The translations under genes were made by a program, and so were the position numbers. Shown here one piece after another: positions 10,022 through 55,867 of a DNA stretch of 64,000 nucleotides (position 1 is its first letter; the number at the start of each line of letters is the position of its first letter). Below the pieces are notes generated by a model, which searched no databases, was not told where the DNA came from, and saw only the letters and a program-made list of their open reading frames with translations. Source of the stretch: Argopecten irradians (Eukaryota > Mollusca > Bivalvia > Pectinida > Pectinidae). The stretch covers positions 25,522,264-25,586,263 of the forward strand of contig NC_091142.1 of assembly GCF_041381155.1 (NCBI RefSeq), in the 5' to 3' direction.

Positions 10022-13000
10022 TCATGCCCTGTAATATGGTACAAAGCGCTCCACAGGTGCTCTGCACACAGGACATAGAAGTGGCTGAGGGAGTATTTCA
10101 GCACAGTCAATACACAGACATATATGTCCACAGCTAATGAGGACAACTTCTCGTGGGTTTGTCAGACAAACCACGCACAGTTCACGATCTTCGTCGTGGA
10201 CTCCATCCTCTTGTGAATCTCCATGTCCACCCTCGGGATCTCTTTGATGGCGGGCATTACGCGCCCTCTGTTCCATCGCTTCCCTCCTCGCTCGTCTATT
10301 CTCTTCTCGTATATTTTGTAACAACTGCCTTTGATGGTATTCTTGCCGTAACTTCTTGTACCAACGATATATCAGAAAAGTCAAGAGACAGGTACCCAGA
10401 ACCAAGGATATTCTGAAGAAAAACTTTGCCATTTTGGACTGTGATTTAAACTTGCTGATAAGTTCCTCCTTGCCGATTGCAGTGACAATGTATCGTTTCC
10501 CATCAGTAGGGGGGCGTAGCCTGACTTTACCAGCTTCTAGTGCCAGTTCTCCTACACCCAATACTGGGGTACCGACTAGTAACATTCGTTCCATTTCATG
10601 GAATCCCTTACTTACTTCACCCGATAGGATGTCCATGCCATGTTTTATGATGGAAGAATTCTCCTTCTTTTCGAACTTATCATAAGTGGTCATCAGATTG
10701 TCTGTTAAGTATTCAGCCCGTCCAGGTTCACTCACGAAAATTTTGTGGTCTGGTTGGCCCTGAGCGTGGATAAGAAACGGAATGAACTCTGATGTATCTC
10801 TTATTGTATTCTTTGTGTCGGCCCTGTACAAATAAAAACATATCTGTAGTTACAACAAAAGAATGTCTAGAATGCAAGAAACCTATAAAACACAAATGTC
10901 TATAAAACTGGGCCTTTAATTAAACATAAAACCCAGAGGAGGAGATCTAGTAATATGGTGGAACAAATATATACATATATATAAGCAGGATGAGACATAC
11001 CAGGATGATAGAGATATGGAATAAGTTTACACTGTCTCCAAAAATGCCTTCAGGTTTTTGACATACATGTACTCTTGGGTGGTTATTACAAAGCAAATTT
11101 CTTCTTTAATTTGAATATATTAAGGATACCTGAACCCATGGGATACATACATATATGTATATAGCTACCTGTTCTGCTAATACCTGTACTTGTATACCAA
11201 TAATCACACACAAAAATATGTACATACCATGTACTCCCTGCAATTCGTTTTGATTTGTGCTCCACTAAAGAGATGGCCTGAACGACTCCCTCCTTGTCGC
11301 TGTATCGACTAATCATAGAGTTACCGACAGGGGCCACAACTCCTTCTAACCACACATACGGCATGATACTGTTTGTACAGTTCTCCAATTCCTTCTCTAA
11401 TCCAGCACCAAGTTTGATATGTTTTGCTCCCTGTAAAAGAAATGGAGGAATCTTAAGAAATGAAAGCGAAATTCAAAGCTTTAATGGCTTATACAGAAGA
11501 GTGCATGACTTGATCACTTTCAAGGAGTTTAACTCTAAAATCTATAATAATATTAATGCCTATATCGACTCAAATAACTCAATTGCATGCATGGTGTACC
11601 AGTGCATACTTAATACCCAATATATGATCAAGATTACTAAGATTGTAAGTAAGAGAACTAACCTTCCTTCCATTTCTGATATTAAAATTATCAATTTCTT
11701 AAGAAAATGTAATCAATTACAATTTCACGATTACGATTACCCCGTGCCTGTCTAATTAGTGACTAAAAGAGTAGATCAAACACAACCTTTGTAACCTTGA
11801 ATGAATATCAAGGTCATTTATTTAAAACAAGAGGCCCATGGGCCTTAACGGTCATCTGACTATTAGTACAATACAACATAGTCGTTTAAAGATTTTAGCC
11901 TATTTGACCCGTGACCTTGATTGAAGGTCGAGGTAATTCATTTGAACAAACTTTGTAGCCCTTCATCCCAGCATGCTACATGCCCAATATCAGTACCCTT
12001 GGCCTTCTGGTTCTTGAAAAGAAGTCATTTAAAAGATTTTAGCCTATTTGCCGCCCGTGACCTTATATGAAGATCAAGGTCATTCATTTGAATACACTTG
12101 ATAGCCCTTCATCCAAGCATGCTACATGCCCAATATCAGTACCCTTGGCCTTTTGGTTCTTGAGAAGAAGTCATTTAAAGATTTAAGCCTATTTGACCCC
12201 CGTGACCTTGAATGAAGGTCAAGGTCATTCATTTGAACAAACTTGGTAGCCCTTCATCCCAGCATGCTACAGGCCCAATATCAGTACCATGGGCCTTCTG
12301 GGTCTTGAGAAGAAGTCGTTTAAAGATTTTAGCCTTTTTGACCCCCATGACCTTGAATGAAGATCAAGTTCATTCATTTGAACAAATTTGTTAGCCCTTC
12401 ATCCCAGCATGTCAAAGGCCCAATATCAGGTCTCTAGGCCTCTTAGTTATTGACAAGAAGTTGTTTAAAGGATTTTAGCCTATTTAACCCCTGTGACCTT
12501 GAATGAAGGTCAAGGTCATTTATTTGAACAAACTTGGTAGCCCTCCATCCCAGCAACCTACAGGCCAAATATAAGTACCCTGGGCCTTCTGGTTCTTGAG
12601 AAGAAGTCATTAAAAGACTTTAGCATATTTGACCCCCGTGACCTTGAATGAAGATCAAGGTCATTCATTTGAACCAACTTGGTAGCCCTTCATCCCAGCA
12701 TGCCACAGGCCTAATATCAGGTCTCTAAACCTCTTCATTATTCACAAGATATTGTTTAAATGATTATAGCCTATTTGACCCCTGTGACCTTGAATGAAGG
12801 TCAAGGTTATTTATTTGAACAAACTTGGTAGCATTTCATCCCAGCATCCTACGGGCCCAATATCAGTACCCTGGACCGTCTGCTTCTTGAGAAGAAGTCG
12901 TTTAAAGATTTAAGCCTTTTTGACCCCTGTGACCTTGAAAGGAGGTCAAGGTCCTTCATTTGAACAAACTTTGTAGCCCTTCATCCCAGCATGTCACAGG

Positions 13001-21538: not shown

Positions 21539-24500
21539 ATGTCGGAGAAAAAGTTACGACTGATCACCTATATGTGCCCAGGTCTACCTGTGGAGCTGTT
21601 TGAGGTGATCCTGCAGTACCTAGAGGAGGTAACTGAGAGGGAAGCCTATCTGATCTACGAGTCCCGGTGGGATGGTCCACCCAGAGAGAGAACTGACCCA
21701 TTCACAGCAGACGAGGTCGATATAGGTAATGGTGTTATCTGTGTAAGGTTTTGTTTTCATTATAAAAAGTGCATTATTTAAACATCTTCAACATCTTTTA
21801 TCGACCATTTATAGGCTTTTTGGAATTTATGACTGGTGGCCTTTTATCGATTGACGACCTTGAGAGATAGGTGACTTTCATGGACCAACATACACATGTA
21901 GACCGATTACTTATGAAAGTTTTTGAACTTTATCAAACAAGTGACATTGAATTTTATAAAAAGGAGACCTAAAAGACAGGCAAACATTTGGTGTAAGTTA
22001 TAGATAGGTGTCACATCATAGTGACCTCTATAGACTGGTGACCTTCACATCATAGTGACCTCTGTAGACTGGTGACCTTCACATCAAAGTGACCTCTGTA
22101 GACTGGCGACCTTCACATCATAGTGACCTCTGTAGACTGGTGACCATCACATCATTGTGACCTCTGTAGACTGGTGACCATCACATCATTGTGCCCTCTG
22201 TAGACTGGTGACCTTCACATCATAGTGACCTCTGTAGACTGGCGACCTTCATGTCATAGTGACCTCTGTAGACTGGTGACCATCACATCATTGTGACCTC
22301 TGTAGACTGGTGACCTTCACATCATAGTGACCTCTGTAGACTGGTGACCTTCACATCATAGTGACCTCTGTAGACTGGTGACCTTCACATCATTGTGACC
22401 TCTGTAGACTGGTGACCCTTCACGTCAAAGTGACCTCTGTAGACTGGTGACCTTCACATCATAGTGACCTCTGTAGACTGGCGACCTTAACATCATTGTG
22501 ACTCCTGTAGACTGGTGACCATCACATCATTGTGACCTCTGTAGACTGGGTGACATCTGTTCTGGTGACCTTCACGTCATAGTGACCTCTGTAGACTGGT
22601 TACCTTTGCATCTTAGTGACTTTGAGAGACTGGTGAACTTCACTCCACAGTTACCTCTGTGAACTGGTGACCTTTGCATCTTTGTGATCTGACCTCTGTA
22701 GTTGATGACCTTCACATTATGTTGTCCTCAGTGGACTGATGACCTTTGCATCTTAGTGGACTGTTTAATTGTCAATTTTAGACTTGCAACTTTATTAATA
22801 ATAGGCTTGAGAGGTTCAGTCACATATCTTTGTTTCTGTTTCTTGTATAGACAGACCTTTTTATATTGGTGACCTTTGAATATTGGTGACCTTTGTGTGT
22901 TGGTGACCTTTGTATGTTGATGACCTTTGTATGTTGGTGACCTTTGTATATTGGTGACCTTTGTATGTTGATGACCTTTGTATGTTGATGACCTTTGTAT
23001 GTTGGTGACCTTTGTATGATGGTGACCTTTGTATATTGGTGACCTTTGTATATTGGTGACCTTTTGTATATTGGTGACCTTTGTATGTTGGTGATTTGTA
23101 TGTTGGTGACCTTTGTGTTGGTGACCTTTTGTATGTTGGTGACCTTTGTATGTTGGTGACCTTTGTGTATGTTGATGACCTTTGTATATTGGTGACCTTT
23201 GTATGTTGATGACCTTTGTATGTTGATGACCTTTGTATGTTGGTGACCTTTGTATGTTGGTGACCTTTGTATGTTGGTGACCTTTGTATGTTGGTGACCT
23301 TTGTATGTTGATGACCTTTGTATGTTGGTGACCTTTGTATATTGGTGACTTTTGTATGTTGGTGACCTTTGTATATTGGTGACCTTTGTATATTGGTGAT
23401 CTTTGTATGTTGGTGACTTGCAACTTTATTGATAATAGGCTTGAGAGGTTCAGTCACATATCTTTGTTCCTGTTTCTTGTATAGACAGACCTTTTTATAT
23501 TGGTGACCTTTGTATATTGGTGACCTTTGTATGTTGGTGACCTTTGTATGTTGTTGACCTTTGTATGATGGTGACCTTTGTATATTGGTGACCTTTGTAT
23601 GTTGGTGACCTTTGTATGTTGATGACCTTTGTATGTTGATGACCTTTGTATGTTGGTGACCTTTGTATATTGGTGACTTTTGTATGTTGTTGACCTTTGT
23701 ATATTGGTGACCTTTGTATATTGGTGATCTTTGTATGTTGGTGACCTTTGTATATTGGTGACTTTTGTATGTTGGTGACCTTTGTATGTTGGTGACCTTT
23801 GTATGTTGGTGACCTTTGTATGTTGATGACCTTTGTATGATGGTGACCTTTGTATGTTGGTGACTTTTGTATGTTGATGACTTTGTATATTGGTGACCTT
23901 TGTATATTGGTGACCTTTGTATGTTGGGTGACCTTTTGATATAGGTTGATGACCATTTGTTGTTTCCTTTGTATGGTGACCTTTGTATATTGGTGACCTT
24001 TGTATATTGGTGACCTTTGTATGTTGGTGACCTTTGTATGTTGGTGACCTTTGTATGTTGATGACCTTTGTATGTTGGTGACCTTTGTATATTGGTGACC
24101 TTTGTATGTTGTTGACCTTTGTATGTTGGTGACCTTTGTATATTGGTGACCTTTGTATATTGGTGACCTTTGTATATTGGTGACCTTTGTATATTGGTGA
24201 TCTTTGTATGTTGGTGACCTTTGTATATTGGTGACTTTTGTATGTTGGTGACCTTTGTATGTTGGTGACCTTTGTATGTTGGTGACGTTTGTATGTTGAT
24301 GACTTTTGTATGATGGTGACCTTTGTATATTGGTGACTTTTGTATGTTGATGACCTTTGTATATTGGTGACCTTTGTATATTGGTGATCTTTGTATGTTG
24401 GTGACTTGCAACTTTATTGATAATAGGCTTGAGAGGTTCAGTCACATATCTTTGTTCCTGTTTCTTGAATAGACAGACCTTTTTATATTGGTGACCTTTG

Positions 24501-27500
24501 TATATTGGTGACCTTTGTATGTTGGTGACCTTTGTATGTTGTTGACCTTTGTATGTTGGTGACCTTTGTATATTGGTGACCTTTGTATGTTGGTGACCTT
24601 TGTATATTGGTGACCTTTGTATGTTGGTGACCTTTGTATGTTGGTGACCTTTGTATGTTGGTGACCTTTGTATATTGGTGACTTTTGTATGTTGGTGACC
24701 TTTGTATGTTGGTGACCTTTGTATATTGGTGATCTTTGTATATTGGTGACCTTTGTATATTGGTGACCTTTGTATATTGGTTACCTTTGTATATTGTTTA
24801 CCTTTGTATGTTGTTGACCTTTGTATGTTGGTGACCTTTGCATCCTTTTAACCTTTGCAGGTTGATGAACTGTAAATCTGATTCGTTTACTTTGAAGACT
24901 ATTAGTATTTTCACTCTGGCAATTATCAAAGACATGTATACAAACTTTTTGATAGGTGTGAACACATGATCTTTTTAGAAAGGTGACCTTTAAAAACAGA
25001 TGGACTTCCAAAACAAATGATATCTTTATTGTGTAACCTTTGTAGACCAATGATCCCTTTTTAGTCACAATGTCGTCATGATTTACATATATATAAGGTA
25101 AATACAAAAGTCTTTTTATTACAGATATTTAAATAAAAAGTTCAAATTATGACTTAAAAGTGTTTTCTACTCTCATATATGTCAACTGGTTAACATTTAG
25201 TGATATTTGTTGTTTTGATAGGTTTTATGAGCAGTGAAACATTTCTACCACTGCAGCAGAGGAAGAACTCAAAAGTCGAGTTATGTGGAGCGGCTCCTGT
25301 CCATGTCCATTCCAAGAGTCAGGCTAATCCTGTATACTTTTCTGACCTCATTATCAACACAAAAGATGTGTAAGTATGCATGTATATTAATGTCTGTTAA
25401 TTACTGTATAGTTGTTTAATTTGACGGGGCGAACATTTCATGGTTTCCTTTTTGATATTTATCTGCAGGGATAAATCTTCGCCCATTTGTCAATTTCAAA
25501 CATTAATACAGCGCTATATACTTTACATTCTTAGAATTGGAATGATTACTCTGTATATTTACATCAGTATAATATCAGAGCACCATCATGAGATTTTAGA
25601 TTTATTAAGAAGACTTATATAATAGTAAGCTCTTTTTAAATTTTGTAAACTTAAAGGAAATTATCTATGCAGATCCCAAAATTTTATGTTGTTAAAATTC
25701 AAAATTCAATTAAGTTTTGAAAGTTGCAATGCAAAAAAGAAATGTAGTGTATGCAGCAACAATTGCTGGCTACAACATATTTGGATTACAAAAATCAATA
25801 AAATCCACAATACTAAACTTTCCACTGTGTTTAGTCCCTTCAGATATCAAAAGCAAAGTTGGCAGTCTATCTATCATATTTAACTTTACACAGGGGGGAA
25901 TACAAGGAAGTACACGACCTACAGGGACACAGCTTTGCCTACGTAGAGGACTCCTCCCTTAGTGGATGCTTGGTTACTTTACAAGAACTGAAAAAGATGG
26001 GATATAACTCAAACTTCTTTGGAAATGTTCTCCGTTCAGGTAAAATTTTGTTCTGTGAAATTGTCCTCTGCTCAGGTAAGTCTTTGTTCTGTAAAATTGT
26101 CCTATGCTCAGGTAAAGTTTTGTTCTGTGAAATTGTCCTCTGCTCAGGTAAGTCTTTGTTCTGTAAAATTGTCCTCTGCTCAGGTAAAGTTTTGTCCTGT
26201 AAAATTGTCCTCTGCTCAGGTGAGCCTATTTTCTGTGAAATTGTCTTCTGTTCAAGTAAGTCTTTCTTCTATGAAATTGTAGAATATCTTGGAATTCATA
26301 AATGAATATTTACAATTATTTGGTAATCTCTATACTATATATATATTGCAGGCTCTCCCCTGAAGTCTATACAGATGGTACTAAATAAAACGGCATCGTC
26401 AGCAGCTGTTGACTCCACCGTTTTATACAACTACCTTCAACAGAATCCACAGCACAAAGAAAACATCACCGTACTAAAATCGTTCGGACCCCTCCCAATT
26501 TACCCAGTTGTGTTCAATTCTCAACTTCCAGGTAGGTGGGGCATTCGCTTTATATAATTCATTTTCATGAATTTTCATTTTTGTGTTTCTTATTTTTAGT
26601 TACACAAATTACATTAAGCCATTACATGTATTTCTAAAATGTTTTATGACTGTTTTAATCAAGGATTTATAAATAAGAAGGATTCGTCACTGTCTCTTTA
26701 CACTACTAAACACCATGCGTGATGCCAATGAACCGGGAATAAAAACCATTTTTCTCAACAAATGCTTTTCTTATCGAGCCAAACGAAACACCAATGTAAA
26801 GTTAATTAAATTTCACAACGTTTAGTACTTACTTTAAAGACGGAAGATTTAGAAGATATGTCTTAAATTTTTGTTAAAAAAATATGTCAGCTCATGAAAT
26901 GACAGCACGCTTCAGAAAGTAAGACGGTAACCCTCGCACCAGCAAGCTACATCAAAGGCTGCGGCAGCAGATATCAATGGAAAATCAGTTGTTGCCCAAC
27001 GTCACGGTCAGTGTACAAACACAAAAGCTCCTACGCAGTACTTGTCCAAAACCCAGTGTGACTTATCCTTCTCATATACGTCCTTGCTTTAATTTATAAG
27101 AAAACTTAAACTGTCTTTGTATATGACAGAGTTACCTCCTTTGCGGGTAGGTATTCATTATGACGTCGTTGTTATGTTGTAAAAACTCTCGTTTTTTTTA
27201 GGTCATCTGACCCGAAGGGTCAGGATGACCTATAGCCATCATGCTTTGTACGTCGTTGTGCGCCGTGCGCCGTCTGTAAACTTTTCACATTTCAATCTTC
27301 TTCTCAAGTTTGACCACTGGGATTGAGCTGAAACTTACATGAAATGATCCTGAGATGGTCCTGACCTAGTGTTGTTATTTTTCGGGTTGATCCGAAATCC
27401 AAGATGGCTGCCACAGCTGCCATCTTGAAAACACATTTTAAACTTCTTCTCAAGTTCTACTGGTGCAATTTAGCTGAAACTTGCATGAAATGATCCTGAC

Positions 27501-30490: not shown

Positions 30491-33400
30491 TAATACAAAC
30501 CTCCCTACTCCCACAAAGGAGAGAGGTAAGGGCCAGGTTTTCTGTGTACTACAAACCTCCCTACTCCCACAAAGGAGAGAGGTAAGGGCCAGGTTTTCTG
30601 TGTACTACAAACCTCCCTACTCCCACAAAGGAGAGAGGTAAGGACCAGGTTTTCTGTGTACTACAAACCTCCCTACTCCCACAAAGGAGAGAGGTAAGGG
30701 CCAGGTTTTCTGTGTACTACAAACCTCCCTACTCCCACAAAGGAGAGAGGTAAGGGCCATCAGGTTTTCTGTGTACTACAAACCTCCCTACTCCCACAAA
30801 GGAGAGAGGTAAGGGTCAGGTTTTTTCTGTGTACTACAAACCTCCCTACTCCCACAAAGGAGAGAGGTAAGGGCCAGGTTTTCTGTGTACTACAAACCTC
30901 CCTACTCCCACAAAGGAGAGAGGTAAGGGTCAGGTTTTCTGTGTACTACAAACCTCCCTACTCCCACAAAGGAGAGAGGTAAGGGTCAGGTTTTCTGTGT
31001 ACTACAAACCTCCCTACTCCCACAAAGGAGAGAGGTAAGGGTCAGGTTTTCTGTGTAGTACAACTACTTACACAAAGGAGAGAGGTAAGGGTCAGGTTTT
31101 CTGTGTAGTACAACTACTTACACAAAGGAGAGAGGTAAGGGTCAGGTTTTCTGTGTACTACAAACCTCCCTACTCCCACAAAGGAGAGAGGTAAGGGTCA
31201 GGTTTTCTGTGTACTACAAACCTCCCTACTCCCACAAAGGAGAGAGGTAAGGGTCAGGTTTTCTGTGTACTATAAACCTCCCTACTCCCACAAAGGAGAG
31301 AGGTAAGGGTCAGGTTTTCTGTGTACTACAAACCTCCCTACTCCCACAAAGGAGAGAGGTAAGGGTCAGGTTTTCTGTGTACTACAAACCTCCCTACTCC
31401 CACAAAGGAGAGAGGTAAGGGCCAGGTTTTTCTGTGTACTCAAAACCTCCCTACTCCCACAAAGGAGAGAGGTAAGGGTCAGGTTTTCTGTGTACTACAA
31501 ACCTCCCTACTCCCACAAAGGAGAGAGGTAAGGGTCAGGTTTTCTGTGTACTACAAACCTCCCTACTCCCACAAAGGAGAGAGGTAAGGGTCAGGTTTTC
31601 TGTGTACTACAAACCTCCCTACTCCCACAAAGGAGAGAGGTAAGGGTCAGGTTTTCTGTGTACTACAAACCTCCCTACTCCCACAAAGGAGAGAGGTAAG
31701 GGTCAGGTTTTCTGTGTACTACAAACCTCTACTCCACAAAGGAGAGGTAGGTCAGGTTTTCTGTGTACTACAAACCTCCCTACTCCCACAAAGGAGAGAG
31801 GTAAGGGTCAGGTTTTCTGTGTACTACAAACCTCCCTACTCCCACAAAAGAGAGTAAGGCAGGTTTTCTGTGTACTACAAACCTCCTACTCCACAAAGGA
31901 GAGAGGTAAGGTCAGGTTTTCTGTGTACTACAAACCTCCCTACTCCCACACAAAGGAGAGAGGTAAGGGTCAGGTTTTTGTGTACTACAAACCTCCCTAC
32001 TCCCACAAAGGAGAGAGGTAAGGGTCAGGTTTTCTGTGTACTACAAACCTCCCTACTCCCACAAAGGAGAGAGGTAAGGGTCAGGTTTTCTGTGTACTAC
32101 AAACCTCCCTACTCCCACAAAGGAGAGAGGTAAGGGTCAGGTTTTCTGTGTACTACAAACCTCACTACTCCCACAAAGGAGAGAGGTAAGGGTCAGGTTT
32201 TCTGTGTACTACAAACCTCCCTACTCCCACCAAAGGAGAGAGGTAAGGGTCAGGTTTTCTGTGTACTACAAACCTCCCTACTCCCACAAAGGAGAGAGGT
32301 AAGGGTCAGGTTTTCTGTGTACTACAAACCTCCCTACTCCCACAAAGGAGAGAGGTAAGGGTCAGGTTTTCTGTGTACTACAAACCTCCCTACTCCCACA
32401 AAGGAGAGAGGTAAGGGTCAGGTTTTCTGTGTACTACAAACCTCCCTACTCCCACAAAGGAGAGAGGTAAGGGTCAGGTTTTCTGTGTACTACAAACCTC
32501 CCTACTCCCACAAAGGAGAGAGGTAAGGGTCAGGTTTTCTGTGTACTACAAACCTCCCTACTCCCACAAAGGAGAGAGGTAAGGGTCAGGTTTTCTGTGT
32601 ACTACAAACCTCCCTACTCCCACAAAGGAGAGAGGTAAGGGTCAGGTTTTCTGTGTACTACAAACCTCCCTACTCCCACAAAGGAGAGAGGTAAGGGATC
32701 AGGTTTTCTGTGTACTACAAACCTCCCTACTCCCACAAAGGAGAGAGGTAAGGGTCAGGTTTTCTGTGTACTACAAACCTCACTACTCCCACAAAGGAGA
32801 GAGGTAAGGGTCAGGTTTTCTGTGTACTACAAACCTCCCTACTCCCACAAAGGAGAGAGGTAAGGGCCAGGTTTTCTGTGTACTACAAACCTCACTACTC
32901 CCACAAAGGAGAGAGGTAAGGGCCAGGTTTTCTGTGTACTACAAACCTCCCTACTCCCACAAAGGAGAGAGGTAAGGGTCAGGTTTTCTGTGTACTACAA
33001 ACCTCCCTACTCCCACAAAGGAGAGAGGTAAGGGTCAGGTTTTCTGTGTACTACAAACCTCCCTACTCCCACAAAGGAGAGAGGTAAGGGTCAGGTTTTC
33101 TGTGTACTACAAACCTCCCTACTCCCACAAAGGAGAGAGGTAAGGGTCAGGTTTTCTGTGTACTACAAACCTCCCTACTCCCACAAAGGAGAGAGGTAAG
33201 GGTCAGGTTTTCTGTGTACTACAAACCTCCCTACTCCCACAAAGGAGAGAGGTAAGGGTCAGGTTTTCTGTGTACTACAAACCTCCCTACTCCCACAAAG
33301 GAGAGAGGTAAGGGTCAGGTTTTCTGTGTACTACAAACCTCCCTACTCCCACAAAGGAGAGAGGTAAGGGTCAGGTTTTCTGTGTACTACAAACCTCCCT

Positions 33401-36400
33401 ACTCCCACAAAGGAGAGAGGTAAGGGTCAGGTTTTCTGTGTACTACAAACCTCCCTACTCCCACAAAGGAGAGAGGTAAGGGCCAGGTTTTCTGTGTACT
33501 ACAAACCTCCCTACTCCCACAAAGGAGAGAGGTAAGGGTCAGGTTTTCTGTGTACTACAAACCTCCCTACTCCCACAAAGGAGAGAGGTAAGGGTCAGGT
33601 TTTCTGTGTACTACAAACCTCCCTACTCCCACAAAGGAGAGAGGTAAGGGTCAGGTTTTCTGTGTACTACAAACCTCCCTACTCCCACAAAGGAGAGAGG
33701 TAAGGGCCAGGTTTTCTGTGTACTACAAACCTCACTACTCCCACAAAGGAGAGAGGTAAGGGCCAGGTTTTCTGTGTACTACAAACCTCCCTACTCCCAC
33801 AAAGGAGAGAGGTAAGGGTCAGGTTTTCTGTGTACTACAAACCTACTACTCCCACAAAGGAGAGAGGTAAGGACCAGGTTTTCTGTGTACTACACAAACT
33901 TCCCTACTTACACAAAGGAGAGAGGTAAGGGTCAGGTTTTCTGTGTACTACAAACCTCCCTACTCCCACAAAGGAGAGAGGTAAGGGTCAGGTTTTCTGT
34001 GTACTACAAACCTCCTACTCCCACAAAGGAGAGAGGTAAGGGTCAGGTTTTTCTGTGTGTACTACAAACCTCCCTACTCCCACAAAGGAGAGAGGTAAGG
34101 GTCAGGTTTTCTGTGTACTACAAACCTCCCTACTCCCACAAAGGAGAGAGGTAAGGGTCAGGTTTTCTGTGTACTACAAACCTCCCTACTCCCACAAAGG
34201 AGAGAGGTAAGGGTCAGGTTTTCTGTGTACTACAAACCTCCCTACTCCCACAAAGGAGAGAGGTAAGGGTCAGGTTTTCTGTGTACTACAAATCTCCCTA
34301 CTCCCACAAAGGAGAGAGGTAAGGGTCAGGTTTTCTGTGTACTACAAACCTCACTACTCCCACAAAAGGAGAGAGGTAAGGGTCAGGTTTTCTGTGTACT
34401 ACAAACCTCACTACTCCCACAAAGGAGAGAGGTAAGGGTCAGGTTTTCTGTGTACTACAAACCTCACTACTCCCACAAAGGAGAGAGGTAAGGGTCAGGT
34501 TTTCTGTGTACTACAAACCTCCCTACTCCCACAAAGGAGAGAGGTAAGGGTCAGGTTTTCTGTGTACTACAAACCTCCCTACTCCCACAAAGGAGAGAGG
34601 TAAGGGTCAGGTTTTCTGTGTACTACAAACCTCCCTACTCCACAAAGGAGAGAGGTAAGGGTCAGGTTTTCTGTGTACTACAAACCTCCCTACTCCCACA
34701 AAGGAGAGAGGTAAGGGTCAGGTTTTCTGTGTACTACAAACCTCCACTACTCCCACAAAGGAGAGAGGTAAGGGTCAGGTTTTCTGTGTACTACAAACCT
34801 CCCTACTCCCACAAAGGAGAGAGGTATGAGAGGTACCTCCCTACTCCCACAAAGGAGAGGTAAGGGTCAGGTTTTCTGTGTACTACAAACCTCCCTACTC
34901 CCACAAAGGAGAGAGGTAAGGGTCAGGTTTTCTGTGTACTACAAACCTCACTACTCCCACAAAGGAGAGAGGTAAGGGTCAGGTTTTCTGTGTACTACAA
35001 ACCTCACTACTCCCACAAAGGAGAGAGGTAAGGGTCAGGTTTTCTGTGTACTACAAACCTCCCTACTCCCACAAAGGAGAGAGGTAAGGGTCAGGTTTTC
35101 TGTGTACTACAAACCTCCCTACTCCCACAAAGGAGAGAGGTATTACCCAGGTTTTCTGTGTACTACAAACCTCCCTACTCCCACAAAGGAGAGAGGTAAG
35201 GGCCAGGTTTTCTGTGTACTACAAACCTCCCTACTCCCACAAAGGAGAGAGGTAAGGGTCAGGTTTTCTGTGTACTACAAACCTCCCTACTCCCACAAAG
35301 GAGAGAGGTAAGGGTCAGGTTTTCTGTGTACTACAAACCTCCCTACTCACACAAAGGAGAGAGGTAAGGGTCAGGTTTTCTGTGTACTACAAACCTCCCT
35401 ACTCCCACAAAGGAGAGAGGTAAGGGTCAGGTTTTCTGTGTACTACAAACCTCCCTACTCCCACAAAGGAGAGAGGTAAGGGTCAGGTTTTCTGTGTACT
35501 ACAAACCTCCCTACTCCCACAAAGGAGAGAGGTAAGGGTCAGGTTTTCTGTGTACTACAAACCTCCCTACTCCCACAAAGGAGAGAGGTAAGGGTCAGGT
35601 TTTCTGTGTACTACAAACCTCCCTACTCCCACAAAGGAGAGAGGTAAGGGCCAGGTTTTCTGTGTACTACAAACCTCCCTACTCCCACAAAGGAGAGAGG
35701 TAAGGGTCAGGTTTTGTGTGTGTACTACAACCTCCTACCAGTTTTCTGTGTACTACAAACCTCCCTACTCCCACAAAGGAGAGAGGTAAGGGTCAGGTTT
35801 TCTGTGTACTACAAACCTCCCTACTCCCACAAAGGAGAGAGGTAAGGGTCAGGTTTTCTGTGTACTAAAACCTCCCTACTCCCACAAAGGAGAGAGGTAA
35901 GGGTCAGGTTTTCTGTGTACTACAAACCTCTCCCTACTCCCACAAAGGAGAGAGGTAAGGGTCAGGTTTTCTGTGTACTACAAACCTCCCTACTCCCACA
36001 AAGGAGAGAGGTAAGGGTCAGGTTTTCTGTGTACTACAAACCTCCCTACTCCCACAAAGGAGAGAGGTAAGGGTCAGGTTTTCTGTGTACTACAAACCTC
36101 CCTACTCCCACAAAGGAGAGAGGTAAGGGTCAGGTTTTCTGTGTACTACAAACCTCACTACTCCCACAAAGGAGAGAGGTAAGGGTCAGGTTTTCTGTGT
36201 ACTACAAACCTCCCTACTCCCACAAAGGAGAGAGGTAAGGGTCAGGTTTTCTGTGTACTACAAACCTCCCTACTCCCACAAAGGAGAGAGGTAAGGGTCA
36301 GGTTTTCTGTGTACTACAAACCTCACTACTCCCACAAAGGAGAGAGGTAAGGGTCAGGTTTTCTGTGTAGTACAAACTACAAACCTCCCTACTCCACAAA

Positions 36401-37548
36401 GGAGAGAGGTAAGGGTCAGGTTTTCTGTGTACTACAAACCTCCCTACTCCCACAAAGGAGAGAGGTAAGGGCCAGGTTTTCTGTGTACTACAAACCTCCC
36501 TACTCCCACAAAGGAGAGAGGTAAGGGTCAGGTTTTCTGTGTAGTACAAAACTTACACTCCCTACTACTTACACAAAGGAGAGAGGTAAGGGTCAGGTTT
36601 TCTGTGTACTACAAACCTCCCTACTCCCACAAAGGAGAGAGGTAAGGGTCAGGTTTTCTGTGTACTACAAACCTCCCTACTCCCACAAAGGAGAGAGGTA
36701 AGGGTCAGGTTTTCTGTGTACTACAAACCTCCCTACTCCCACAAAGGAGAGAGGTAAGGGTCAGGTTTTCTGTGTACTACAAACCTCCCTACTCCCACAA
36801 AGGAGAGAGGTAAGGGTCAGGTTTTCTGTGTACTACAAACCTCCCTACTCTACCACATCCACAAAGGAGAGAGGTAAGGGCCAGGTTTTCTGTGTACTAC
36901 AAACCTCACTACTCACACAAAGGAGAGAGGTAAGGGTCAGGTTTTCTGTGTACTACAAACCTCACTACTCCCACAAAGGAGAGAGGTAAGGGTCAGGTTT
37001 TCTGTGTACTACAAACCTCCCTACTCCCACAAAGGAGAGAGGTAAGGGCCAGGTTTTCTGTGTACTACAAACCTCCCTACTCCCACAAAGGAGAGAGGTA
37101 AGGGTCAGGTTTTCTGTGTAGTACAACTACTTACACAAAGGAGAGAGGTAAGGGTCAGGTTTTCTGTGTACTACAAACCTCCCTACTCCCACAAAGGAGA
37201 GAGGTAAGGGTCAGGTTTTCTGTGTACTACAAACCTCACTACTCCCACAAAGGAGAGAGGTAAGGGTCAGGTTTTCTGTGTACTACAAACCTCCCTACTC
37301 CCACAAAGGAGAGAGGTAAGGGTCAGGTTTTCTGTGTACTACAACTACTCCCACAAAGGAGGAGAGAGGTAAGGGTCAGGTTTTCTGTGTACTACAAACC
37401 TCCCTACTCCCACAAAGGAGAGAGGTAAGGGTCAGGTTTTCTGTGTACTACAAACCTCCCTACTCCCACAAAGGAGAGAGGTAAGGGTCAGGTTTTCTGT
37501 GTACTACAAACCTCCCTACTCCCACAAAGGAGAGAGGTAAGGGTCAGA
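30491..37548. repeat. 7-kb minisatellite, 56-bp unit, about 125 copies
   Basis: The unit contains CAGGTTTTCTGTGTACTACA, AACCTCCCTACTCCCACAAA and GGAGAGAGGTAAGGGT in order. Most copies are identical or differ at one of a few positions (GGGT/GGGC, CTCCC/CTCAC). A shorter variant with TAGTACAACTACTTACAC recurs near 31066, 31112 and 37127. ACCTCCCTACTCC and GGAGAGAGGT can pair as a small hairpin in each unit. Small clusters of copies carry several single-base losses. It is intergenic between two converging genes. Confidence 0.95.
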
Positions 37549-51600: not shown

Positions 51601-54600
51601 AGTTTATGATATATTTGAGGAATTTGACCTTGAATGAAGGTCATGGTCATGATTTAAAATTACTGATGAGAAGTTTTTAAAGATTTAAACTTATTTGAGT
51701 TTGAAATGAAAATTTTATGCACAATGTATGATGCATGATGGATGTCTCACGGCGGATGGCGGACGGCACACGACAAAAGAGATGGAACATGATGACTATA
51801 GGACTTTAGGTCAGATAACCCAAAAATACAAAATTCCAAAATTCAGCAGTCTACACATATTTCATTTTGTGATACTTACCTTCATAAATATGGTTTCTTT
51901 GCTGGAACAGATAGCCACACATTCTGAGATGAAGCCACTTTTCTTGGTCATTATATCAGCCCAGGTCCAGCGGGTCTGACCGTCACCGAAGTAAGCTCCC
52001 ATTACAGGGATTTCCTCTTGTCTGATCAGATCACTCAGGTGGTTGTGTACTATATATAGACACATGGTATTTATTATGTACACTTACAAAGGACGCTCAA
52101 GTATAAGTAACACACTTCCTAACAACCTCCTCCTTCTCCAGCGTTCAGGTATCAAGACGCGATAAAATAGAATACTATAATAGCTGCTTAGTTTCGCAAG
52201 CCAAAATTTTCAAGCTTTGGACATAAAGTTAGAAAATAGAATCTTAATGAATCAAAATTTCACAAAAATATATCATTCCTGTAAAAATAGCCAGCATGCA
52301 AACTGTGAAATCATTTAATTTTGTTTGGGTCTATTTTCTTGGGAGACAATATTTTACAATTTCACTGGGATTGAAATTCGTGGAGACTGTACACAGTATT
52401 TATGTGTTCTTGTGTTGACACTGCGATTTTAAGCTTTATCTAAGGCATTAGATAAAACAGCAATTATTTCAAGTTTGGCTTTAACTACTATCAAAATAGA
52501 GATGATTATAATTGTTTTGAAAATAGGTTTGCTTTTACTTTTTTACAGATCTAATACTGTAATCAAAGTTTTGTCCCTTAAAACAGATAAAAAATTATGG
52601 GGACATATTTTTCGTTGCTTCAAAATAAAAACAAAAACCATGAAAATGCAACCCCCATGAAACATAATGATTTCACAATACTGGGCATTTCTTAATCAAC
52701 ACAAGACCTCTACGGCCTTTTTCAGATGTTGAGAGACTGACAATGTTTTCTTATTATAGTAACAGTGACTTTGACCAAGGCAAAATAATGATGAAACCAA
52801 TTTGATGAGCAACACACATAATTATCAGGTAAATCCCAATTAGTTTGATGGACAATTCACAGATTTTATGAAGTTTCTGATATAATTACCTATCAGAGCG
52901 AACAGCTGCATTGCCTCCCCTTGACAGCCGGGGGGTCCCTGGATGTAGATGTGCTCGTGAAGTTCTATCTCATTGAGATAGGGCTGCATTTTCCCGTACA
53001 GAATGCTTGGTCCACACATCGCCATACAGATAGCTACCTATATCATTTATCAGTACACTGGCGATGAATTGGAACTTTTATGCATAGCTAAACATCTTAT
53101 AGCTTGTTATTGTAAACAATTAATTTAAATATTTTGGTGCAAATTAATTTTAGCGAAAAACTTGATTTTGAATAAGTAAGCGAAATACAACTGTAATAAT
53201 ACATGTAATAGCTCTATCATAGATATCGCAATTAGTTCATTTATATTTTAGGGCAGAGTTTCTTGTATGAAATGTGCTAATATGTGATAACCAATAAAAT
53301 ATGTATATTTACAGTACACTTCTATTACAAACGTAGGTTAACATATTCTGGTTTTCACAAATGCAATGAAGTGGTGGAAATAAGTTCTTCAAATTGACTT
53401 CCGTCTTGCTAAAAATGTACTTGTGCTTGTTCATTATTTTCAGCACTGACTGTATTTCTTTATATATCTATAGGTCAGTCTTGATAGCCATTAACAGTTT
53501 GAGTATGTATTTAATGAATTATTTGATCACTGACTTCTACACATAGATTGATAAAGACTTACCCGGTAGGAGCCCTTTCTCTGTATATAGCTCTGTTGTT
53601 CAAATATCTGCAAAATGAAACTATAGATTAAACTACTGACTTATCTCCCTTTATGAATATTCTGTCATGAAAAGGTCATATGGGTCTGTTAAGATCATAA
53701 CAAAATAGATAAGGATACATAAACACATTAGGAGTTGGGTATCTAGATCTAGTGCTTTTATTCCCCTTCAAACTGCTTACATGCATCTTTATAAGAGATT
53801 CTGTAAGAGGCTCTCTTTTGATTAGGCCAAAAGAAAATGTCTGTTTAGGGTTACATTGGCAAAAAAAATAAGGTCGATAGGTAGGGATTTCTCTTTTTTT
53901 AAATAATTTTTAATTGATGTAATAGGGAGCTGTTTACTAAACAGGTATATGGCTCATATTCATCAATAAAATTATCAAACATTATTGTCTTTCATTATTG
54001 ACTCTTTATTTAACAATGAATAAATGGAAATTTGACTAAGAATTAAAGAAGGTATTAACAGCTCAGATTGGCTTAGAGTAAAACTATTAATAGGAGTATC
54101 CTTTAAGGGAAAGAGAAAAATTAGGGTCAGGGGTAAAGTAAAAAATTAAGGTCGGTCGGGTAACCCTAAACAAACATTTTTTTTGGCCTTACCTTGAGAA
54201 ATTCTGTGAGGGGCTCCTTTAGGATGCTTATATTTAGAGATTTTGTGAGGGGCTCCTTAAGTATGCTTACCTTTAGAGATTCTGTGAGGGGCTCCTTTAG
54301 TAAACTTACTTTTAGAGATTCTTTGAGGAGCTCCTATAAAATAAGTATACTTACCTTTAGAGATTTTGTGAGGGGCTCCTTTAGTATACTTACCTTTAGA
54401 GATTCTGTGAGGGGCTCCTTTAGTATACTTACCTTTAGAGAATCTGTGAGGGGCTCCTTTAGTAAACTTACTTTTAGAGATTCTGTGAGGGGCTCCTATA
54501 AAATAAGTATACTTACCTTTAGAGATTCTGTGAGGGGCTCCTTTAGTATACTTACCTTTAGAGATTCTGTGAGGGGCTCCTTTAGTATGCTTACCTTTAG

Positions 54601-55867
54601 AAATTCTGTGAGCGGCTCCTTTAGTATACTTACCTTTAGAGATTCTGTGAGGGGCTCCTTTAGTATGCTTACCTTTAGAAATTCTGTGAGCGGCTCCTTT
54701 AGTATGCTTACCTTTAGAAATTCTGTGAGGGGCTCCTTTAGTATACTTACCTTTAGAAATTCTGTGAGGGGCTCCTTTAGTATGCTTACCTTTAGAAATT
54801 CTGTGAGCGGCTCCTTTAGTAAAAATATCTTTAGAGATTTTGTGAGGCGTTCTGTAAGCATGCTTTCCTTTAGAGATTCTGGGAGGGGCTCCTTTAGTAT
54901 GCTTACTTTTAGAGATTCTGTGAGGGACTTCTTTAGTATGCTTACCTTTAGAAATTATGTGAGGAGCTCCTTTAGTAAAATTTCCTTTAGAAATGCTGTG
55001 AGGGGCTCCTTTAGTATACTTACCTTTAGATATTCTGTGTGGGGCTCCTTTAGTATGCCTACCTTTAGATATTATGTGAGAAGCTCCTTTAGCAAACTTA
55101 TCTTTAGAGATTCTGTGAGGGGCTCCTTTATAATTATCTTTAGAGATTCTGTGTGGGGCCCCTTTACTTACTTACCTTTAATGATTCTGTGAGGGACTTC
55201 TTCTTTAGAGATTTTGTGAGGCGCTCTTTAAGCATGCTTTCCTTTAGAGATTCTGTGAGAGGCTCCTTTAGTATACTTACTTTTAGAGATTCTGTGAGGG
55301 ACTCCTTTAATATGCTTACCTTTAGAGATTTTTTGAAGGTCTCCTTTAGTATACTTACCTTTAGAGATTCAGTGAGGGGCTCCTTTAGTATGCTTACCTT
55401 TAGAGATTATGTGAGAAGCTCCTTTAGTATAATTACCTTTAGAGATTCTCTAAGGGGCTCCTTTAGTAAAATTACCTTTAGAGATTCTGTGAGGGGCTCC
55501 TTTAGTATTCTGACCTTTAGCAATTCTGTGAGGGGCTCCTTTATTATGCTAACCTTTAGAGATTTTTTGAAGGTCTCCTTTAGTATACTTACCTTTAGAA
55601 ATTCTGTGAGCGGCTCCTTTAGTAAGATTATCTTTAGAGATTTTGTGAGGGTCTATTTTGTGAGGTGCTCCTTAAGCATGCTTTCCTTTAGAGATTCTGG
55701 GAGGGGCTCCTTTAGTATGCTTACCTTTAGAGATTTTTTGAGGGTCTCCTTTAGTATGCTAACCTTTAGAGATTTTTTGAAGGTCTCATTTAATATGCTT
55801 ACCTTTAGAGTTTCTGTGAGGGGTACATATGCTCCTGTATCCAGTATGGCTAAAGCACTCGGTGTAC
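42676..55867 (-). CDS. conserved multi-exon protein, C-terminal part, family not recognised
   Basis: Ten exons join in phase on the minus strand: 55867-55803, 53607-53563, 53037-52890, 52049-51880, 48201-48119, 47285-47219, 46410-46240, 44749-44483, 43555-43370 and 42903-42676 (TGA). They give about 475 residues; the first exon starts in phase 1, so the N-terminal part lies beyond the window or was missed to the right. Order of visible segments: DTGAYVPLTETLK; IFEQQSYIQRKGSYR; a Cys/Met-rich CMAMCGPSILYG and QGPPGCQGEAMQLF; RWTWADIMTKK; a hydrophobic YFLFHFLTDDD; DWLTVHRGLLLRSLLNQ; a helical region; a Pro/Gln/Arg-rich linker (QPPPPSQQPSRGSKG); and helical segments to the end (SLAPQAMNTILE). 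No membrane segment, zinc finger or kinase motif is seen. The composition suggests an all-helical scaffold or adaptor, which is only an inference. The first exon abuts a 39-bp array that repeats its splice donor. Confidence 0.8.
44028..44365 (-). mobile_element. two tandem HINE-like head modules, reversed
   Basis: CCCAATGGGCCTCTTGAA and GGCCCATGGGCCTCTTGAA, the reverse of the HINE head, occur about 165 bp apart. Each is followed by the same CAACAATTATAATCCAAAAT and TTACAACACTTGCAC blocks. No tail is found. Intronic. Confidence 0.6.
45133..45250 (+). mobile_element. decayed tRNA-derived SINE
   Basis: TAGCTTAATCGATTGAGCAT resembles a tRNA A box and D-arm, and TCTCGGATCAAAC is a degraded B box. 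The 3' part has CTGTTACATTTTTTCC, also seen at the end of the SINE near 59.5 kb. Intronic in the unrecognised gene. Confidence 0.5.
45330..46203. repeat. 43-bp minisatellite split by a MITE
   Basis: The unit is ACTTGAAGACTGGGAAGTGG plus GAGGGTAAAATCTTGTCGACTAT. Two near-perfect copies precede 45418 and about seven follow 45905. The copies on both sides are almost identical, so the array expanded recently. Confidence 0.9.
45419..45904. mobile_element. MITE inserted in the 43-bp array, TSD TA
   Basis: It starts CAGTGGAACTTGGTTGATAC and its right end is the inverted CGAACTC/GTATTCGAGTCACT version. Reading the flanking units together shows that the target TA was duplicated (45417-45418 and 45905-45906). 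The 486-bp body has further ACTCGGATAATTCGA-type inverted words and no transposase frame. Ends and target fit the pogo/Tigger branch of Tc1/mariner. Confidence 0.78.
47925..48092 (-). mobile_element. tRNA-derived SINE with GGGTACTCC central motif
   Basis: Read leftward: GGTGCGATGGCTGAGATGTC (A-box region), GTTCAAATCCCATG (B box), then ACCGGGTACTCCAGCTTTTC, a motif shared by many mollusc SINEs, and an AT-rich 3' end. Several substitutions suggest an old copy. It lies in an intron of the unrecognised gene, in the same orientation as that gene. Confidence 0.65.
48250..50190 (+). mobile_element. HINE-like element, head plus about 13 core units, tail missing
   Basis: The head ACAAGAGGCCCAAAGGGCCT and TAACGGTCATCTGAC is followed by about 13 units of 137-150 bp marked by CTTGAGAAGAAGTTCAAAAT, AAGATGGCGGC and CGACCCGAAAAATAACAACA. 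The same core is found reversed at 27191-27858. The array stops abruptly at about 50190 without the usual hairpin tail. Open frames of 60-90 codons here come from the repeat. Intronic. Confidence 0.78.
51626..51829 (+). mobile_element. HINE-like tail remnant
   Basis: One decayed core unit (GACCTTGAATGAAGGTCATG), an ACGGCGGATGGCGGACGG stretch and a degraded tail (TTTAGGTCAGATAACCCAAAAA). It lies about 50 bp downstream of a splice donor of the unrecognised gene. Confidence 0.6.
53825..54188. mobile_element. Harbinger-like MITE, GGCCAAAA ends, TSD TTA
   Basis: The ends are GGCCAAAAGAAAATGTCTGT and its inverted match, with terminal repeats of about 30 bp extending through TTTAGGGTTAC. TTA flanks both sides (53822-53824 and 54189-54191). 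It is 364 bp with no coding capacity. Its right edge touches the last unit of the 39-bp splice-donor array. Confidence 0.78.
54189..55803 (-). repeat. 39-bp array duplicating an exon/intron junction, about 40 units
   Basis: On the gene's strand the unit is CCCCTCACAGAATCTCTAAAG followed by GTAAGTATACTAAAGGAG. It is homologous to the 3' end of the exon 55867-55803 plus its donor. Nearly every unit keeps CTAAAG|GTAAG, and each also has a TACTAA-like branch-point word and a CCCCTCACAG that could act as a weak acceptor. In the exon's own frame the first three units are open (VSILKEPLTESLK-like), a stop follows in the fourth, and a further open run lies at 54496-54861. The long open frame on the other strand is a by-product of the repeat. 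Confidence 0.88.

Follow-up and report, generated by a model that had tools for sequence, protein, structure and literature searches.

Tandem arrays spanning exon-intron boundaries in the bay scallop Argopecten irradians: a seven-copy splice-donor array at a PhnD-like exon

In the bay scallop, an exon of a PhnD-like gene runs into a tandem array in which its own 5' splice junction is repeated seven times. This array likely belongs with the boundary-spanning minisatellites described as mirages in lancelets; the first donor would be the one used, the inner donors would be tolerated decoys, and both the 36-bp unit length and the open reading frame would be coincidental. All window coordinates below refer to the 64-kb stretch of genomic DNA that was analysed.

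Structure of the array at the PhnD-like exon

TRF reports 26015-26280 (forward strand) as 7.4 copies of a 36-bp period (84% matches, score 339), and 26036-26280 as 3.4 copies of a 72-bp period with 89% matches and a score of 376, above that of the 36-bp unit. Sequence comparison gives a unit made of 25 nt of exon tail and 11 nt of intron: likeness to the unit ends 25 nt inside the exon (25894-26039), and the array reaches about 240 bp into the following intron (26040-26351, 312 bp). The GT sites are found at 26040, 26076, 26112, 26148, 26184, 26220 and 26256, with a spacing of exactly 36 bp. Six of the seven copies have AG|GT, and the seventh has AA|GT. From donor 1 (CAG|GTAAAA, 26040-26041) through the six inner copies (26076-26257), the hexamers are GTAAAA, GTAAGT, GTAAAG, GTAAGT, GTAAAG, GTGAGC and GTAAGT. 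Against the 9-base consensus donor 1 matches 7 positions, which makes it equal weakest (donors 1 and 3 were scored, the rest judged by eye). A preliminary description of this DNA had reported that the 5' splice junction of a PhnD-like exon is tandemly repeated at the end of that exon, that the seven sites have an exact 36-bp spacing, and that the first donor is further from the consensus than several of the inner donors (GTAAGT). The TRF result together with the Pfam match of the gene (PF12974, 4.8e-19), the GT positions and the hexamers bear out these three points.

The copy that includes the exon has 61 to 78% identity with the six downstream copies. Among the inner copies, adjacent ones are 75-89% identical and next-but-one pairs reach 100, 97, 83 and 78%, copies 2 to 5 being of two alternating versions, GTAAGT and GTAAAG. 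A 72-bp dimer seems to have been the unit of growth for part of the array, and we infer from the whole pattern that an early duplication at the edge of the exon was followed by expansion and homogenisation downstream. Tandem arrays are hard to assemble, and 5.6-12.6% of the bases in the intron bins of myosin exons are repeats, which would speak for an assembly artefact or for a chance minisatellite merely touching the exon. Either is very unlikely in our view: the copies differ and have a dimer structure, the unit boundary falls 25 nt inside the exon, and the same layout is found at conserved exons of ABC, sideroflexin, mitofusin and myosin genes. The array region has a single match in the one assembly searched. 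Rfam and tRNA scans of the 64-kb window returned no matches.

Donor choice in the PhnD-like gene

Three forward-strand exons of the gene join in frame, an upstream exon between AG and GTAAGT (25222-25369), the exon that seeds the array (25894-26039, 3' end in phase 1) and a downstream exon (26352-26531). Joined at donor 1 they encode 157-158 residues with the PF12974 (Phosphonate-bd) match given above, while the upstream exon on its own (25224-25369) has no Pfam match. When the junction was moved in silico, the score fell from 69.1 bits at donor 1 to 60.0, 57.4, 55.5 and 53.3 bits at donors 2, 3, 4 and 7, the five donors compared, all of them above the cut-off of 27 bits. Two ArrX sequences (1.7e-4 and 1.1e-3) are the sole solved relatives at E ≤ 0.01, and the junction is aligned to them free of gaps. 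The PF12974 scores and this alignment indicate that donor 1 gives the ordinary fold of the family. A normal PhnD-like protein thus requires the exon-proximal donor, and donor 1 is most likely the splice site used. A protein search of the genome for a PhnD-like paralogue that could serve as an array-free comparison found none, the three matches being the exons of the gene itself.

One expectation runs against the use of donor 1. Where two comparable 5' splice sites compete, the intron-proximal one is favoured according to PMC6002489, which also calls the choice of the spliceosome among near-identical donors unresolved. In the PhnD-like gene this preference would predict the use of an inner donor, and the rank of donor 1 as equal weakest also speaks against donor 1.

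The preliminary description had suggested a length-variable splice switch, in which donors 1 to 7 are all used and each step adds 12 residues to the PhnD-like protein. The seven copies in one phase, the open frame and the several inner donors that are stronger by consensus are in favour of it. On the other hand, the PF12974 score drops with all four insert lengths scored, though staying above the cut-off, and the inserts would interrupt the stretch aligned without gaps to ArrX. The frame itself says little: the frame of the exon does stay open through the array, intron retention leading to a stop only at the TGA of 26303-26305, and the unit is divisible by three, as had been noted, but shuffling the 36-mer leaves the frame open in 47% of cases. 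Further frames are open through all or most of the array too (forward 25992-26279; reverse 25942-26268 and 25977-26225). The array itself exceeds chance; its divisibility by three and its open frame do not.

A second array and other features of the window

A second boundary-spanning array was found on the minus strand at 54188-55823, where TRF gives a 39-bp unit and 44 matches to the donor consensus are present. Its units consist of exon tail plus donor, and it is seeded by the exon TPSALAILDTGAYVPLTETLK (55803-55867, minus strand), in which, judged by eye, a frame stays open between a CAG acceptor and the donor. The first in-frame stop falls in the fourth copy past the exon. The 21-residue peptide of this exon has no Pfam match, the mechanical acceptor rule described below did not pick the exon, and a family name sought for the minus-strand gene was not found.

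Other repeats are present in the window. A 7-kb array at 30494-37547 contains about 126 copies of a 56-bp unit (92% matches) whose consensus includes GAGAGAG|GTAAGG, with no edge exon recognised by eye. Upstream of the PhnD-like exons, about 116 copies of a 17-bp unit form an array (22854-24840); a longer segment, acttgcaactttatt..., precedes this array at about 22780 and recurs within it at roughly 23417 and 24404. Two further coding features are an open frame on the minus strand at 10025-10849 with GIDE (PF12483, 1.5e-20) and RING finger (PF13920, 7.2e-14) matches, which we take to be a MUL1-like E3 ligase, and a starch-binding CBM_20 domain at 1194-1646 (PF00686, 3.9e-12).

Donor arrays elsewhere in the genome

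From genome pattern lists and one sequence sample we obtained 26 further donor-motif arrays with the upstream side in hand. The upstream edge was reached in 22 of them, the edge lying beyond the sequence for L066, L072, L073 and L075. A plausible coding exon is present at the start of 13 of these 22 (L005, L043, L044, L045, L050, L056, L057, L059, L067, L068, L071, L074 and L076), and no clear exon is seen at the edge of the other 9 (L040, L041, L042, L051, L052, L053, L055, L069 and L070), of which L041 has mobile-element-like sequence there and L053 starts about 100 bp inside an intron. In L043, L045, L071 and the myosin array L085 the similarity begins at the donor or within a few nt of it, with no evident copy of the exon tail; for the first three, the part evidently copied is the donor and the intron start alone.

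A mechanical rule for seed exons, requiring an acceptor with pyrimidines and an open frame to the donor (first donors placed by eye), picked 11 of the 22 arrays, against 56 of 296 AGGT sites with an exon of at least 45 nt (P ~0.001). For L051 and L055 less than 200 nt of upstream sequence was available to the rule. L005 and L059 were added as seed exons by eye, L059 with Pfam support. Given the base rate of the rule (56/296), single seed-exon calls that have no family match are weak. Three of ten seed-exon peptides scored above the Pfam cut-offs, with matches to ABC_tran (4.1e-10), sideroflexins (1.5e-12) and mitofusin (2.1e-8). The remaining seven have no match above cut-off, and four of these have no match at all; matches below cut-off include LIM (0.011) and CANIN (0.0081), and one peptide shows a weak MmgE_PrpD match that is at odds with its reading as myosin. 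Judged by eye, L043 is presumably glutamate-receptor-like, L057 LIM and L056 CCDC50-like.

Some of these arrays are very long. A mitofusin-like exon at the edge of L076 (about C1:6463090-6468540, minus strand) leads into some 5.4 kb of donor array with a 42-bp unit, on the order of 130 units if continuous, in which one stretch looks like a copy of another about 1.6 kb away. At L057 (about C1:27400253-27403210, minus strand), dozens of 52-bp units come after a LIM-like exon and repeat its last ~45 nt nearly unchanged.

For 16 donor arrays seeded by exons, the unit lengths, read from the sequences and with L045 omitted as irregular, are 36, 39, 41, 28, 37, 40, 37, 52, 32, 40, 51, 46, 51, 42, 54 and 34 bp. 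Six are multiples of three, where 5.3 are expected (P 0.45), so that selection for in-frame insertion does not characterise this class of arrays. Frame preservation was accordingly rejected as a mark of function, with the multiples of three at chance level, the shuffled unit open about half of the time and other frames open as well. Since multiples of three are not enriched, these arrays also count against the splice switch, which we hold to be unlikely.

The sister arrays bear equally on recursive splicing, the other idea of the preliminary description, in which each CAG|GTAAGT would serve as a 3' and then as a 5' site and the units would be removed stepwise, as in a ratchet. Like recursive splice sites, the array has juxtaposed AG|GT, in six of its seven copies, and the pyrimidine content before the inner donors is moderate (59-65%). 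These pyrimidines look ordinary, though, both in the PhnD-like array and in 17 arrays where 5 to 13 of the 17 positions before the donor are pyrimidines, and they probably form no distinct tract. Recursive splice sites are known from long introns, and here the intron has 312 bp and the steps would be of 36 nt, which is shorter than introns are known to be. Moreover, the sequence preceding the donor is coding exon in several sister arrays, for instance L110 and L068, and in the PhnD-like array it is likewise of coding origin. We find this reading barely credible. The switch and recursive readings both rest on features that an array can inherit by chance from the exon.

Arrays at myosin exons

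The frequency of such arrays was estimated in the Myosin_head family (82 places), taking 60 exon 3' ends and 40 exon 5' ends by list rank, irrespective of arrays. Donor-side arrays were found at 2 or 3 of the 60 exon ends, L110, L085 and probably L106 (95% interval for 2/60, 0.4-11.5%). In L110 a 54-bp unit is repeated in at least 5 full units past the exon, whose tail is EQIQYYFNQHIFAWEM, and L085 carries a degenerate 34-bp array. The L065/L067 array, which the myosin family search also brought up, was left uncounted since its exon is not among the 60. Near a myosin exon, L065 contains a 39-bp repeat (229-983) that lacks the donor motif and has a 207-residue open frame, (HSESTNNEISKLQ)n, in antisense orientation to the gene. 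Two trimmed exon pieces of a muscle myosin (L061) agree in 208 of 208 residues with 1dfk and 1dfl in the alignments shown; 1b7t, 1kk7 and 1qvi reach an equal bit score, and 2ec6 and 2os8 a lower one. The first five are bay scallop myosins and the last two come from another scallop, in keeping with the bay scallop as source; a lancelet was set aside on the strength of this match.

On the acceptor side, 4 of 40 exons carry arrays (2.8-23.7%), with units of 60 bp in L158, 56 bp in L172, 42 bp in L140, where the array is degenerate, and 86/99 bp in L153. In all four, the pyrimidine tract, the AG and the exon head are repeated upstream of the real exon. A 118-bp duplication in L169 was not assigned to this class. 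A bias of arrays towards donors alone, entertained as a candidate, was dropped after these four acceptor arrays among the 40 acceptor sides. An automatic test for arrays spanning the boundary, run on 59 donors (L123 was skipped), lists L094 and L110, not L085; for acceptors it lists L153, L158 and L172, not L140. L094 seems to be a repeat within the intron whose donor was wrongly placed.

Are splice sites a hotspot for array birth?

Beyond this, minisatellites could be born preferentially at splice donors in the bay scallop genome. The donor motif TGAGGTAAGT forms 7 arrays in the first 144 Mb and its mirrored motif 5 in the first 466 Mb, about 4.5 times as many per Mb (P 0.010), although the single motif is about as common as its mirror (1959 vs 2231, array copies included). 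For TCAGGTAAGTA, 7 arrays in the first 211 Mb compare with at most 5 of the mirror in 846 Mb, at least a 5.6-fold excess (P 0.004), most of which is accounted for by the single motif being 3.9 times as common as its mirror (1606 vs 407). A repeated donor consensus is also present in 4 of 18 array clusters with periods of 25-60 bp in a 124-kb sample made of the 64-kb window, 8 random 5-kb pieces and 6 myosin loci, the window's own array being one of the four.

Against such a preference, repeat coverage shows no peak at the boundary. In successive 60-bp intron bins it amounts to 5.6, 8.8, 10.1 and 7.8% at 59 myosin donors and to 12.4, 12.6, 8.9 and 9.2% at 40 myosin acceptors. Acceptors carry arrays too, as the four myosin cases show, and in site-level counts the mirrored control is commoner in two pattern lists (355 vs 225; 2 vs 1) and close in the third (11 vs 16). 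A hotspot at donors is a possibility to which we give somewhat less than even weight. Other enrichments counted by site (8740 vs 886, 840 vs 15 and 469 vs 5) were set aside as inflated by giant arrays; because of this inflation and of the opposite result of 225 vs 355, only array-level counts were used. We conclude that tandem arrays form widely in the introns of this genome, boundaries being no exception, and that donors may be favoured in addition.

Discussion

The closest known systems are the mirages of lancelets, described for Adh3, troponin C, globin and PGBD5 as tandem repeats over both 5' and 3' exon-intron boundaries. According to the accounts in PMC3087553 and PMC3902484, many of their units contain AG/GT, the edge copies escape homogenisation, and their length is unstable while splicing is apparently undisturbed. 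The PhnD-like array has the structural features of a mirage. Its unit spans the boundary, AG/GT signals are present in the units, and the edge copy is set apart, as a matter of degree, with 61-78% identity for the exon copy and 75-100% among the inner copies. The bay scallop differs from the lancelet cases, as these are described, in being a mollusc, in having exon-seeded donor units of 28-54 bp in two to dozens of copies or more, and in frequency, since mirages were reported from a handful of lancelet genes (PMC3087553, PMC3902484) and the scallop arrays apparently affect a few percent of the sampled exon boundaries. The evidence also differs, RT-PCR being reported for lancelets and DNA alone being used here.

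Other systems share part of the pattern. In human duplicated genes, variable minisatellites with units of about 30 bp on average are described at exon-intron boundaries (PMC2812944); according to that account they belong to segmental-duplication paralogues and can create novel introns, whereas the scallop arrays, known from DNA, are in conserved genes. A 27-bp intronic minisatellite of the abalone TSSK1-like gene varies in copy number between individuals (PMC6905558). Both it and the scallop array are mollusc intronic minisatellites, with boundary spanning shown for the scallop one. Our survey of the open-access literature, mostly at title level, turned up no molluscan case of a minisatellite that spans an exon-intron boundary. 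A model of intron gain by tandem duplication of an AGGT segment, discussed in PMC3087553, likewise starts from a duplicated AG/GT segment. In the scallop, in contrast, the intron is there, the copies lie inside it, and no new intron is indicated.

We suggest that the PhnD-like array began when a tandem duplication copied 25 nt of exon tail together with the 5' splice site and 11 nt of adjoining intron. It may then have reached seven copies by slippage or unequal exchange, in part through 72-bp dimers, a growth route suggested by the similarity of the units. The copy at the exon edge differs from the inner ones, which are more homogenised, and this would be expected if it is under coding constraint. 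Splicing at donor 1 would most likely yield the normal phosphonate-binding fold, while the inner donors, lying within the intron, would be tolerated as decoys and might cause some mis-splicing. The 36-bp unit length and the open frame would then be a coincidence. More broadly, the genome is generally prone to tandem duplication, with donor- and acceptor-spanning arrays as one outcome.

The U1 snRNP is reported to protect roughly 35 nt, and the arrays form natural ladders of near-identical 5' splice sites in conserved genes, with two to dozens and perhaps more than 100 copies placed 28-54 bp apart, that is, around the U1 footprint. If the exon-most copy were reliably chosen against the intron-proximal preference, a so far undescribed rule of donor choice would follow, or the ladders could act as U1-loading platforms; we regard this as a long shot. 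The conserved scallop genes affected include mitofusin, sideroflexin, an ABC protein and myosins. The arrays of the bay scallop thus offer many natural tests of how the spliceosome chooses among near-identical donors, and they also bear on how introns lengthen and acquire new boundaries.
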